This document shows positions 16,162 to 41,725 of a DNA stretch of 64,000 bases, piece by piece. A program made the translations under genes and the position numbers. This DNA is from Sphingomonas pruni NBRC 15498 (lineage in GTDB: Bacteria > Pseudomonadota > Alphaproteobacteria > Sphingomonadales > Sphingomonadaceae). Below the pieces are notes generated by a model. That model worked only from the letters and a program-made list of their open reading frames with translations, did no database searches and was not told the origin of the DNA. The stretch spans positions 51,494 to 115,493 of the forward strand of contig NZ_BCYZ01000007.1 in the NCBI RefSeq assembly GCF_001598455.1, written 5' to 3'. Position 1 is the stretch's first letter, and the number at the start of each line of letters is the position of its first letter.

Positions 16162-16271
16162 ATCGTCATCCTGGCCTTGTGCCGGGATCCGCATAGACTC
16201 GCCGGCTGAACCACGCCTCTTGTCTGACGAGTGTCTCCCGGCAGACCCCGGCACAAGGCCGGGGTGACGAT
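16162..16271. repeat. MITE-like inverted repeat element, family D
   Basis: Arms at 16162-16189 and 16244-16271 are inverted copies matching at about 25 of 28 positions (core ggccttgtgccggg / cccggcacaaggcc), with outer ends atcgtca / tgacgat. The element of about 110 bases lies between convergent DUF4170 and rhomboid genes. Confidence 0.75.
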
Positions 16272-38144: not shown

Positions 38145-39341
38145 TCAATAGAGCAGGTGTGGGCGCCGCGCTTCGGCCCAGACTGCCTCATCGGGAACGG
38201 TGAGCGAATCGAGATCGCCCGGCAGCGCCGCCGCATCGTCGACCCATTCGCGCAGATCGGGACCGCCGTTGATGACGTCGATCGCCAGTTTGTCGAAGAC
38301 ATATTCATACGCGAAATCGCGCCAGAGATCGTAATCGCCGTACAGCGTACGGATCGCCTTGAATGCCAGCGCTTGCACCCGCCACGGGCGGAACGCGTCG
38401 TGATCGTACGCGGCACCCTCTGCGTGGATGAACACGCCGCTGCACAACCGACCGACATGCTTGTGAAAAGTCGGCTGAAACCAGATGTCGCGCAGCGTGC
38501 AGCCTTCGAGCCATTGCGGCGCGAATCGTCGCATCTCCGCGATCAAGGCGCGGGCGTCGATATCGGGCGCACCGAACAGTTCGAGCGGGCGTGTGGTCCC
38601 CCGCCCCTCGCTCAAATTCGTGCCTTCGAGCATCACCGTCCCTGCATAAGCGCGGGCCATATTGACGTTGGCGGCATTGGGGCTGGGATTGATCCAGGGC
38701 CGCTCGGGGGGCCAACCGAAACCGGGCGCGGCATCGGGTTGCCAGCCCTCCATCGCGATTACGCGATAGTCCACATCGAGCTTGTAATTGTCGATGAACC
38801 AATGCCCCATCTCGCCCAGGGTCATGCCGTGCCGCATCGGCATCGGCCCCGCCCCGACGAAGCTTTCCCAGCCGGGCCGCAGGGTCAGTCCCTCGATCGG
38901 GCGGCCCGCGGGATTGGGGCGATCGAGCACCCAGACCGATTTGCCATGCGTCGCCGCTGCTTCGAGCACGTAGAGCAAGGTCGTGACGAACGTGTAGATG
39001 CGGCAGCCGACATCCTGAAGGTCGATCAGAATCGTATCGAACGTGCCCATCGACTGGCCAGTTGGCCGACGTACCTCGCCGTATAAACTGAACACCGGCA
39101 TGCCGTAGGTCGGATCGGTGAAGTCGGGCGACTCCATCATATTGTCCTGCAGGTCGCCGCGCACGCCGTGCTGCGGGCCAAACACCGCCGAGACGTTGAG
39201 CCCCGTTGCGACCAGCGCGTCGAGCGAATGCGTCAGGTCCGCGGTGACCGAAGCGGGGTGCGCAAGCAAGGCGACACGCTTGCCCTCGAGCGGTTTGCAA
39301 AGGTCAGGCTCAGCGAGGAGCCGGTCGATACCGAATTTCAC
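38145..39341 (-). CDS. DUF1343 family protein, NamZ-like exo-muramidase
   Basis: The 398-residue protein matches DUF1343: FGIDRLL, LLAHPASV, VFGPQHGVRGDLQDNM, IDLQDVGCRIYTF, VLDRPNP and GTNLSEGRGTTRPLELFGAP. The characterised member, NamZ of B. subtilis (GH171), is an exo-N-acetylmuramidase in peptidoglycan recycling. No signal peptide is visible, so this form should be cytoplasmic and act on imported muropeptides. Confidence 0.9.
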   Translation of the reverse strand: MKFGIDRLLAEPDLCKPLEGKRVALLAHPASVTADLTHSLDALVATGLNVSAVFGPQHGVRGDLQDNMMESPDFTDPTYGMPVFSLYGEVRRPTGQSMGTFDTILIDLQDVGCRIYTFVTTLLYVLEAAATHGKSVWVLDRPNPAGRPIEGLTLRPGWESFVGAGPMPMRHGMTLGEMGHWFIDNYKLDVDYRVIAMEGWQPDAAPGFGWPPERPWINPSPNAANVNMARAYAGTVMLEGTNLSEGRGTTRPLELFGAPDIDARALIAEMRRFAPQWLEGCTLRDIWFQPTFHKHVGRLCSGVFIHAEGAAYDHDAFRPWRVQALAFKAIRTLYGDYDLWRDFAYEYVFDKLAIDVINGGPDLREWVDDAAALPGDLDSLTVPDEAVWAEARRPHLLY

Positions 39342-39350
39342 GATGCAACG

Positions 39351-39442
39351 CCCCTTACTCTACGCCTTCCCGGCGAAGGCCGGGGCCCAGCCTCGGCCCG
39401 ATCGTAACTGGGCCCCGGCCTTCGCCGGGGAAGCGTAAGGGG
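39351..39442. repeat. Compact MITE-like element, family B
   Basis: Arms 39361-39390 and 39408-39437 are inverted copies matching at 28 of 30 positions (core ggcgaaggccggggcccag / ctgggccccggccttcgcc). An outer ccccttac (39351-39358) and gtaagggg (39435-39442) extend the pairing. The element fills the space between the DUF1343 start and the stop of the DOMON-like gene. Confidence 0.85.
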
Positions 39443-39964
39443 TCAAGCCCGATCAGGCGCAGCCAAGTGCGCGAGGAAGCAATTCGCGTTGTGGAAGTCA
39501 GGTGGGCCGTCAGGATGTTGGAGCGCCCAATAGGATTTGGTTCCATCGGTAGCTTCGATGACCACTGTCAGGCCGAGAAGCCAGTCGGCATCGGCGATGT
39601 CGTTCAGCTCAACGTCCGCGGCCAGCGTCGGCGATTGCCAGGACAAGTGGGGAACCGCCGCGGCGTTCCGCATGCCCGCGCGATGGCCGGTGAACTGATA
39701 GGACGCCCACCGACCCGACGGCGAGAGATTGATTTCGACGTAACCCACCTGCCCCGCGGGCTGGACGAAGGCCTCGAAACAGGTGTGCATCCACAGCTCA
39801 TCGGTCCGCGCCGGCGGCCTCGGCTCGGGCCACAGTACGCGATCGAGCGCGCCATCTACTGTGTAGCGCAGCGACAGGATCGCGCCGTTTCGAGCGATTT
39901 CGACTCCAATCGCCGTTACAGCGAGACTTGGAAAAGCAGGATGCGGGACCAGCCGCTCACGCAT
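39443..39964 (-). CDS. DOMON-like domain protein
   Basis: I used the ATG at 39964 (MRERLVPHPAFPSLAVTAIG, 173 residues); an ATG at 40003 overlapping the upstream stop would add 13 residues encoded by a repeat arm. The beta-sandwich protein shows DELWMHTCFEAFV, VGYVEINLSPSGRWASYQF and the end YWALQHPDGPPDFHNANCF, as in DOMON-like type 2 domains of alphaproteobacteria. Such domains bind haem or sugar. No signal peptide is seen. Confidence 0.8.
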   Translation of the reverse strand: MRERLVPHPAFPSLAVTAIGVEIARNGAILSLRYTVDGALDRVLWPEPRPPARTDELWMHTCFEAFVQPAGQVGYVEINLSPSGRWASYQFTGHRAGMRNAAAVPHLSWQSPTLAADVELNDIADADWLLGLTVVIEATDGTKSYWALQHPDGPPDFHNANCFLAHLAAPDRA

Positions 39965-39987
39965 CCCCGGCGAAGGCCGGGGCCCAG
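39961..39987 (+). repeat. Family B repeat arm, right-pointing copy
   Basis: The core ggcgaaggccggggcccag is identical to the left arm of the element at 39351-39442. It lies immediately beyond the 3' end of the GIY-YIG gene and includes the likely start codon of the DOMON-like gene. It is inverted with respect to the arm at 40313-40342. Confidence 0.8.
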
Positions 39988-39999
39988 TTGCGACGTCAA

Positions 40000-40290
40000 T
40001 CATGGCAGCGCGATCCGATCAAACAAATCTTCCCACTCCGGGTTCATGCCCTCGATCTCGCGCAGCTTCCAGGCGCGTTGCCATTCCTTCATCTGCCGCT
40101 CGCGGAGCCGAGCGGCCGCGAGTTCTGAATGTTCCTCGTACCAAACTAGGATCTTGCAGCCATATCGTTTGGTGAAGCCGTCGATCACACCGTTGCGATG
40201 TTCGTAGGCGCGGCGAACGAGGTCGTCCGTCGATCCCATATAGATCGTGCCGTTCCGCCCACTCGCCATGATGTAAACATAGGACGGCAT
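40000..40290 (-). CDS. GIY-YIG nuclease family protein
   Basis: The ATG at 40290 ([20 protein letters not shown]) gives 96 residues, close to the usual size of single-domain URI/YhbQ-like GIY-YIG proteins. The GIY and YIG strands are YVYIM and IYMGS, followed by [11 protein letters not shown] with the conserved arginine, and a C-terminal NPEWEDLF. The family includes nucleases that cut DNA once. The gene is bracketed by inverted family B repeat arms at 39961-39987 and 40313-40342, which suggests it belongs to a small element. Confidence 0.9.
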
Positions 40291-40312
40291 TTCCATCGCA
40301 AGGTTCCCGACG

Positions 40313-40342
40313 CTGGGCCCCGGCCTCCGCCGGGGAGGCGTA
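40313..40342 (-). repeat. Family B repeat arm, left-pointing copy
   Basis: This arm matches 28 of 30 positions of the right arm at 39408-39437 and is inverted relative to 39961-39987. It lies 22 bases upstream of the GIY-YIG start codon and 54 bases before rimO. Confidence 0.8.
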
Positions 40343-40396
40343 TTTGTTGCTGCTCTAGTAAAATTAGCGGATGTCGCCTATGTGCGCGGCCTTCCA

Positions 40397-41725
40397 ATGG
40401 CTACTATTCTCCCCTCCCCGCCCCGCGTGGGCATGGTCTCGCTCGGCTGTCCCAAGAACCTGGTCGACAGCGAGCGCATCCTGACCAAGCTGCGCAGCGA
40501 CGGCTATCAGATTTCGCCGGACTATGCCGGCGCGGACGTCGTATTGGTCAATACGTGCGGCTTCCTCGATTCCGCCAAGGAGGAAAGCCTGGAAGCGATC
40601 GGGGAGGCGATTGCCGAGAATGGCCGCGTCATCGTCACCGGCTGCATGGGCAAGGAAGCCGAGGTCATCCGCACCCGCTTCCCCGACGTACTCGCGATCA
40701 CCGGCGCGCACGAATATGAGCAGGTCGTGGGCGCGGTGCACGACGCGGCGCCGATGCCGCCCAACGCCTTTCTCAACCTTGTGCCCGAAAGCGGACTCAA
40801 GCTCACCCCGCGCCATTACAGCTATCTGAAAATCTCCGAGGGCTGCAACCATCGCTGCGCCTTCTGCATCATCCCGTCACTGCGCGGCGACCTGGTCAGC
40901 CGGCGTCCCGATGCGATCCTGCGTGAGGCTGAAAAGCTGGTCGAAGCGGGGACCAAGGAACTGCTGGTCATCAGCCAGGACACCTCTGCTTACGGTGTCG
41001 ACATCAAGCACCATCCGCGCATGTGGCACGGCCAGGAAGTCCGCGCCCACATGACCGACCTGGCGCGCGAGCTCGGCAAGATCGCGCCCTGGGTGCGGCT
41101 GCACTATGTCTATCCTTACCCGCATGTCGATCAGGTCATCCCGCTGATGGCCGAGGGGTTGGTGCTGCCCTATCTCGACATTCCGTTCCAGCATGCCAGC
41201 CGCAACGTGCTCAAGCTGATGCGCCGCCCGGCAAATGAGGCGAAAGTGCTCGAGCGGATCAAGTCGTGGCGCGCGATCGCCCCCGACATCGCGATCCGCT
41301 CGACCTTCGTGGTCGGCTTCCCTGGCGAGACCGACGAAGATTTCGAGTATCTGCTCGATTGGCTCGACGAGGCTCAGCTCGATCGCGTCGGCGCGTTCCG
41401 CTTCGAGCCGGTCGAGGGCGCCGCGGCGAACGCCCTGCCCAATCCGGTGCCCGAAGAGGTCAAGGAAGAGCGCTACGCCCGGATCATGGAAAAGACCGCG
41501 GCGATCAGCGCGGCCAAGCTCGCCGCCAAGGTCGGTCGCACTCTGCCGGTGATCATCGACGCGGTCGATGAGGATGGCGGTGCCACTGGCCGCAGCCAAG
41601 CCGACGCACCCGAGATCGACGGTGAGGTGTTCCTGCGCGATGCCGGACATCTCGCGGTCGGCGATATCACCCCGGTACTGATCGAGGACGCCGATGAGCA
41701 CGATTTGTACGGCGTGCCGGCCTGA
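40397..41725 (+). CDS. rimO: Ribosomal protein S12 methylthiotransferase RimO
   Basis: ATG 40397 ([21 protein letters not shown]) gives 442 residues. It has the N-terminal MTTase domain ([38 protein letters not shown] with three cluster cysteines), the radical SAM motif CNHRCAFC with RGDLVSR, the RimO-type [11 protein letters not shown] and a C-terminal TRAM domain ([20 protein letters not shown]). It adds a methylthio group to an aspartate of ribosomal protein S12. Confidence 0.98.

Follow-up and report, generated by a model that had tools for sequence, protein, structure and literature searches.

Members of the Ssn family, published in 2025, are reportedly GIY-YIG enzymes that act site-specifically on single-stranded DNA at repeats (NTS) abundant in Neisseria, where they are said to tune DNA uptake or recombination. 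In the RAYT/REPIN system, as set out in PMC3116915, a distinct enzyme gene lies beside each group of repeats and several enzyme/repeat pairs occur in a genome; the repeats are mostly inverted doublets, which are the proposed spreading unit, and the RAYT gene is single-copy and apparently unable to move itself. The widespread CGTC-tagged REPs are short stem-loops, arranged mainly as head-to-head dimers and most prevalent in alpha-Proteobacteria (Di Nocera et al. 2013, PMC3733652); in that survey, no transposase gene was associated with CGTC REPs, and the CGTC-1 repeats of Neisseria were equated with dRS3. A search for GIY-YIG together with REP, REPIN, RAYT, dRS3 or Ssn, covering part of the literature through titles and the openings of abstracts, returned no description of such an association; one paper in which GIY-YIG and REP terms coincided (PMC9465073) was, in the part available, unrelated to any gene/repeat association and was set aside.

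The window, i.e., the whole stretch of DNA analysed, comprises 64,000 nt of the genome of Sphingomonas pruni NBRC 15498 (labelled G000; G000:C7:51494-115493). It contains a gene for a GIY-YIG nuclease on the reverse strand (40000..40296; Pfam PF01541, E = 3.2e-13), which encodes 98 aa rather than the 96 residues given in an earlier, sequence-only reading. The gene is placed between two arms of a repeat, family 1, that were delimited by arm alignment, pattern search and folding; the left arm is on the forward strand (39959..39987) and the right arm is inverted, on the reverse strand (40313..40342). The left arm has an outer ACGCAT, a stem of CCCCGGC/GCCGGGG, a GAAG loop and a CCCAG tail. The two arms (39959-39987 and 40313-40341) are complementary at 93%, with 325 nt between them, and the unit of approximately 380 bp consists of the nuclease gene and both arms, with nothing else. 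A gene-less, REPIN-like inverted pair (39361..39437, unstranded; defined by arm alignment and fold) lies between the neighbouring namZ-like gene and a gene here called the DUF gene; its arms, 39361-39390 and 39408-39437, are likewise complementary at 93% and are 17 nt apart. Direct matches connect the two pairs, 39408-39437 with 40313-40342 (93% over 30 nt) and 39362-39390 with 39959-39987 (93% over 29 nt). The sequence-only reading had described inverted arms around the gene that match those of a compact element nearby, and had taken the unit of about 380 bases to hold the GIY-YIG gene alone; the alignments bear out both points. Folded as single-stranded DNA, the gene-less unit reached -39 kcal/mol (z = -8.1); less striking values were obtained when each of the gene unit's two arms was folded singly (z = -2.6 and -1.9).

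Both units are embedded among conserved neighbours. The namZ-like gene (38145..39341, reverse strand; PF07075 and PF20732) is followed by the DUF gene (39443..39964, reverse strand), which has homologues in 73 of 151 genomes of the genus (E = 1e-10) and for which Pfam and NCBIfam searches gave no match. The likely native start codon of the DUF gene falls within the left arm of the gene unit, and its longest open reading frame (39443-40003) begins inside the repeat unit. Beyond the other side of the unit is rimO (40382..41725, forward strand; TIGR01125, above cut-off). Elsewhere in the window there is a single REP arm of family 3 (16240..16269, reverse strand; pattern match with one mismatch), the repeat family that brackets a different GIY-YIG gene in the same genome, on G000:C17. 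A search of the whole window against Rfam at gathering thresholds returned no family.

Structural prediction gave the 98-aa protein a confident GIY-YIG fold (AlphaFold2, mean pLDDT 94.8), and PF01541 was its sole Pfam match; NCBIfam returned none. In Foldseek, the UPF0213 protein 1zg2 was the only solved structure with E < 0.001 (E = 7.9e-4), followed by Slx1 and the UvrC nuclease domain (E = 0.02 to 0.06), while sequence matches among solved structures were to 1zg2 (E = 3.8e-8), 1ywl (E = 1.1e-4) and UvrC. Across an alignment of 16 sequences, Y8, R29, H33, E66 and N85 were invariant and Y19 nearly so; we take these positions to correspond to the catalytic residues of I-TevI.

There are three small GIY-YIG genes in G000, of which the other two are 41–42% identical to the window gene. 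Each is bracketed by inverted arms, and the three arm families are distinct: CCCCGGCGAAGGCCGGGGCCCAG for family 1 of the window, CGTCATCCCCGCGAAAGCGGGGACCCA for family 2 (arms of 32 nt, 100%) and CGTCACTCCGGCCTTGTGCCGGGGTCTGCC for family 3 (arms of 44 nt, 91%). Searching G000 with each pattern, allowing up to three mismatches, produced 109 copies of family 1 (52+57; two, 1+1, for the reversed control), 24 of family 2 and 10 of family 3 (no control matches in either case). The family-1 arms are beyond chance, because there were 52+57 matches against 1+1, and family 1 outnumbers the other two hairpin-repeat families examined in this genome. When arms were paired (for family 1, from 89 of 100 listed places, with 11 three-mismatch places excluded and nine more of the 109 unlisted), the 89 family-1 arms formed 42 gene-less inverted pairs, three singles and one gene-bearing pair 348 nt apart. 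The 24 arms of family 2 formed eight gene-less pairs, six singles and one gene pair 356 nt apart; the 10 arms of family 3 gave eight singles and one gene pair 372 nt apart, and the pattern used yielded no gene-less pair of this family in G000. The predominance of inverted doublets, a trait of RAYT/REPIN, therefore held for families 1 and 2 and not for family 3. In each family the sole inverted pair wider than 130 nt was the one that holds the nuclease, so that the arms are not placed at random with respect to the gene.

Comparison of 18 gene-less family-1 pairs with the gene unit showed a shared organisation, i.e., outer ends that are mostly ACGCYT or near to it, a hairpin, CCCAG and a variable middle. 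None of the three arm families carries a GTAG tag. A CGTC tag lies outside the stem in families 2 and 3 and is absent from family 1, where mostly ACGCYT is found; family 1 does have an unpaired tail of the CCA type (CCCAG after the stem). The outer tag of clade-1 arms was also observed to differ among genomes of the genus (GCCT, TGTT, CCTT, ACCA), and a gene related to clade 1, G011_C15, keeps CGTC; the tag is therefore not needed in all members. There is one nuclease gene per repeat family in G000, and G022 has two with family-1 arms, at two sites.

Homologues of the three G000 proteins were found in 44 of 61 genomes. Of 122 places, 118 were taken on and 117 located, comprising 90 strong (at least 80 bits) and 27 weak matches; the last four weak matches and G012:C134 were left out, and several weak matches are fragments of the main clade. 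Bracketing was assessed by local alignment of the 250 nt upstream to the reverse complement of the 250 nt downstream, with a score of at least 18 as the threshold. Inverted repeats were found around 72 of the 90 strong homologues, the other 18 showing none at this threshold, and around 21 of the 27 weak ones (some being fragments). Among random intervals the threshold was reached by 27 of 1183, and among real ORFs, which are the fairer control and were taken from 48 relative loci of at least 9 kb, by six of 382 (small ORFs, 1/183). The result was repeated in named genomes, where the best 80 loci, mostly from Pseudomonadota, were taken and 79 scored (one was at a contig end): 58 loci were bracketed, as compared with 8 of 192 control ORFs and 7 of 751 intervals. 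The expectation that homologues would mostly be flanked by arms was thus upheld in both sets.

Bracketed loci outside Pseudomonadota included records titled Dehalococcoidia (L308), Desulfobacteraceae (L306), Desulfobacterales (L334), Candidatus Uhrbacteria (L326) and FCPU426 (L328); those of Planctomycetota (L307), Kerfeldbacteria (L285, L325), Acetothermia (L310) and Sulfurovum (L339) scored below the threshold. The nearest named homologues of the window protein, among the best loci listed, were mostly from Sphingomonas, and a homologue from Neisseria sp. (L322), 53% identical to the window protein, lies among CGTC-type repeats. Homologues (E = 1e-15) occur in 76 of 299 genomes drawn from the phylum, and a protein search produced at least 8000 candidates, all at E = 1e-10 or better. 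Of the nearest hairpins, 89 had the tag directed away from the gene and 40 had it directed towards the gene, with 18 unclear; arm orientation is therefore not uniform, and some nuclease genes have a whole repeat pair on each side.

A second, divergent GIY-YIG clade was also observed among the weak matches (about 35–48 bits; L173, L178, L177, L181, L183 and others). Of the 19 weak matches that are not fragments, 13 reach the threshold for bracketing, with arms that represent variants of a different repeat class, CCGTTCGYCCTGAG...GTCGAAGG. The gene-between-arms layout may hold for another REP superfamily.

The correspondence between nuclease and arms was considered in 87 of the 90 strong genes, three with internal stops being dropped; when these were ordered by the protein tree, neighbouring genes often had a common arm family. 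For the 57 of 87 genes with a matching repeat hairpin on both sides, arm similarity to the nearest protein from another genome and another site had a median score of 22 (n = 57), compared with 10 for genes within one genome (30 pairs); this difference was significant (p = 3.5e-5), with genes and genomes treated as independent and kinship uncorrected here and in the copy-number tests below. A general correlation of protein and arm similarity over all 1462 cross-site pairs was weak (Spearman 0.09, a value equalled or exceeded in 98 of 2000 permutations) and this form of the claim was dropped, the nearest-relative form being kept. Since arms were alike only above 70% protein identity (16 pairs) and the overall correlation was weak, arm specificity seems to change fast.

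In both families tested, the number of repeats follows the presence of the nuclease. Family-1 arms had a median of 53 copies in genomes of the genus with a clade-1 nuclease (n = 11) and 2 in those without (n = 26, with G012, whose clade-1-like copy is split in two, counted here; p = 2.8e-4). For the ATGCTGAAC family, the medians were 7 with the corresponding nuclease clade (n = 7) and 0 without it (n = 30; p = 8.6e-5). Many family-1 arms were nonetheless found in certain genomes where no clade-1 gene was found (G029, 96; G017, 50; G031, 38), as well as in two such genomes that are incomplete (G035, 100; G020, 64). No family-1 arms were found in 24 genomes of other genera. In G029, other sequence with a possible ORF (L138 1-575) was observed where G032 has a family-1 nuclease (L108 5600-6400).

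These patterns were interpreted as follows. The GIY-YIG protein would recognise the hairpin of its own repeat family and nick it on single strands, for instance on the lagging-strand template; the cut repeat would then be re-inserted through the repair systems of the host, since DNA hydrolysis by a GIY-YIG enzyme should involve no covalent intermediate. The copy that carries the gene would be a repeat pair whose arms enclose the nuclease; it would rarely move and be kept at a few sites, as RAYT genes are. For the window, it is rather probable, from comparison of sequences, that the nuclease recognises and nicks family-1 hairpins in single-stranded DNA and so helps to copy gene-less pairs around the genome. 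The wider proposition, that a pan-bacterial set of mobile repeats depends for its movement on a dedicated GIY-YIG nuclease, which hydrolytically nicks the hairpins of its own repeats on single-stranded DNA, rather than on a transposase, is more tentative and somewhat less likely than not. The sequence-only reading had likened the locus to REP sequences tended by RAYT transposases, and this analogy, of a GIY-YIG nuclease paired with its own repeats, has held up, given the bracketed homologues, the non-random arms and the sites that lack a unit.

Such sites were identified by comparing one genome per species. The gene order namZ, DUF gene, rimO is conserved among relatives, and in G000, G106 and G022 a gene unit separates the DUF gene from rimO; G067 has a truncated piece, and the G106 copy has two in-frame stops. 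Among 29 relatives' loci, 17 had both the DUF gene and rimO but gave no GIY-YIG match in the interval, and in 10 of the 29 rimO was not found within the stretch examined; the DUF-rimO spacing was about 200 nt or less in 13 of these 17, which include G064 and G156, where rimO is 97% and 98% identical respectively. The gene-less pair at the namZ/DUF junction was absent from all six relatives aligned, though extra bases beside the pair blur the exact junction. At another site, G032 has just a gene-less family-1 pair in the position where G029 carries a GIY-YIG gene flanked by repeats of its own.

Overall, 59 of 88 nuclease genes share a syntenic site with another. A tree of 96 columns, with weak resolution, placed the three rimO-site genes in one group (support 93), which adjoins the 10 clade-1 genes found at a second site; 13 genomes have that second site occupied, and G022 has genes at both, on different contigs. 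At least 13 site changes were required across the 59 site-labelled genes, on this poorly resolved tree and with 29 of the 88 genes unlabelled. On these comparisons the gene unit moves rarely and is patchily lost. The mobile nuclease unit proposed in the sequence-only reading is therefore sustained in part: empty sites and site changes agree with it, but the unit does not move freely, being single-copy per family in G000 and, for 59 of 88 genes, at a syntenic site common to another gene, and at the window's own site the unit is broken or truncated in two relatives (G106 and G067). A separate observation concerns G024 and G034 at one syntenic site (L118/L086), where the flanks are 94–95% alike, the GIY-YIG alleles are 73% identical at the DNA level, and the two alleles have different repeats alongside.

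Gene-less pairs were compared in the same manner. Seven of 17 family-1 pairs of G000 were inspected visually against G064 and G114. G064 had a family-1 pair at L008, L030 and L024 (where the right flank alone matched) and another repeat type at L010 and L019 (where the left flank alone matched); no alignment was obtained at L022, and at L016 there was a single arm where G000 has a pair. The latter looks like a deletion of the segment between direct CCCCGGC copies of the two arms, an event of a kind that would turn doublets into singlets. G114 had a pair at L010 and none at L030, and at L024 it lacked the family-1 pair but kept a neighbouring repeat pair also present in G000; its remaining sites were other sequence or could not be aligned. 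Over 200 kb compared between G024 and G034, there were 12 family-1-type pairs in G024, of which six had both flanks together in G034 (five with spacing within 10 nt and one shorter by 36 nt), three had flanks that matched apart and three were without a flank match. None of the six well-flanked sites was without the pair's length, so no fresh family-1 insertion was seen in these 200 kb; longer differences were present at other repeat types. The one clean pair indel between these very close genomes, a difference of 100 nt in another repeat family, is better explained by loss, because the pair is present in the more distant G018 as well. The junctions compared were poorly resolved and established no target-site duplication. 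Turnover of repeat pairs is, as judged from these alignments, real but slow.

One alternative is that the protein is a domesticated host nuclease, for which the repeats are cut or binding sites used in tuning DNA uptake or recombination and have spread by other means. That no well-flanked family-1-type site of G024 lacked the pair's length in G034 (0/6) is consistent with this alternative, as are the many genes that remain at common syntenic sites and the Neisseria homologue among CGTC-type repeats. It would not, however, lead one to expect inverted arms around the gene or at least 13 site changes among 59 labelled genes (given the poorly resolved tree), nor that repeat copy number would follow the presence of the nuclease; it is regarded as unlikely, if the most serious of the alternatives. 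The unit could otherwise be an ordinary autonomous transposon of about 380 bp, with the gene-less pairs as its MITEs. A unit made up of just a gene and its arms, the sites without it, and the occurrence of related nuclease clades at two sites, of which G022 has both filled, on different contigs, all suit a transposon; one gene copy per repeat family in G000, fixed sites common to 59 of 88 genes and no established target duplication do not, and together make this explanation improbable. It is more improbable still that the repeats are mobilised by a different transposase, for example a RAYT, with the GIY-YIG gene as a passenger. RAYTs are proposed to move REPINs in other bacteria (PMC3116915); however, a profile search placed the RAYT-type transposase PF01797 in 10 of 61 genomes and in neither G000 nor the other 10 genomes with a family-1 nuclease, and 58 of the 79 named loci of the nuclease family have bracketing arms. 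A RAYT was accordingly rejected as the mobiliser of the window repeats. Coincidence, i.e., common intergenic REP hairpins flanking the nuclease by chance, might be suggested by the abundance of family-1 arms in G000, but is refuted by the ORF controls (1 of 183 small ORFs bracketed, against 72 of 90 GIY-YIG genes).

If the nuclease does spread its repeats, it is convergent with RAYT/REPIN through an unrelated fold and chemistry. On the wider, pan-bacterial proposition, it would represent a second, independently evolved solution to the role that RAYTs have for GTAG REPs, and the GIY-YIG nuclease would be the long-missing partner of the CGTC REPs. Two CGTC families and the untagged family of the window each have their own GIY-YIG nuclease between their arms, and the arrangement recurs in several phyla; the spreader of CGTC-type REPs thereby becomes a directly testable question, for which the three families supply natural enzyme/hairpin pairs for studies of specificity.

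The described systems resemble this locus to differing degrees. UPF0213 proteins (1zg2, 1ywl) have a GIY-YIG-type fold and a similar size in common with the window protein, and their sequence match is weak. The Ssn family is presumably the same protein family as the window nuclease, which supports the inferred chemistry and limits the novelty; it is therefore doubtful that, as the sequence-only reading had supposed, there is no described system of this kind. The likeness consists of a small, single-domain GIY-YIG protein and a specific, abundant genomic repeat, the cleavage of single-stranded DNA being predicted here. The CGTC REPs share with families 2 and 3 of G000 a short stem-loop that begins with CGTC; they differ in that G000 has a GIY-YIG gene between the arms, and in that family 1 of the window is without the tag. 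From RAYT/REPIN the locus differs in its enzyme, a GIY-YIG nuclease (PF01541 match alone) rather than an HUH/tyrosine transposase, and in the tags of the window genome, which are CGTC-type or absent where those of RAYT REPs are GTAG. In organisation the two are nevertheless alike: cognate repeats flank a single-copy gene that seemingly does not move by itself, several enzyme/repeat pairs coexist in G000, and the repeats of families 1 and 2 occur mostly as inverted doublets.
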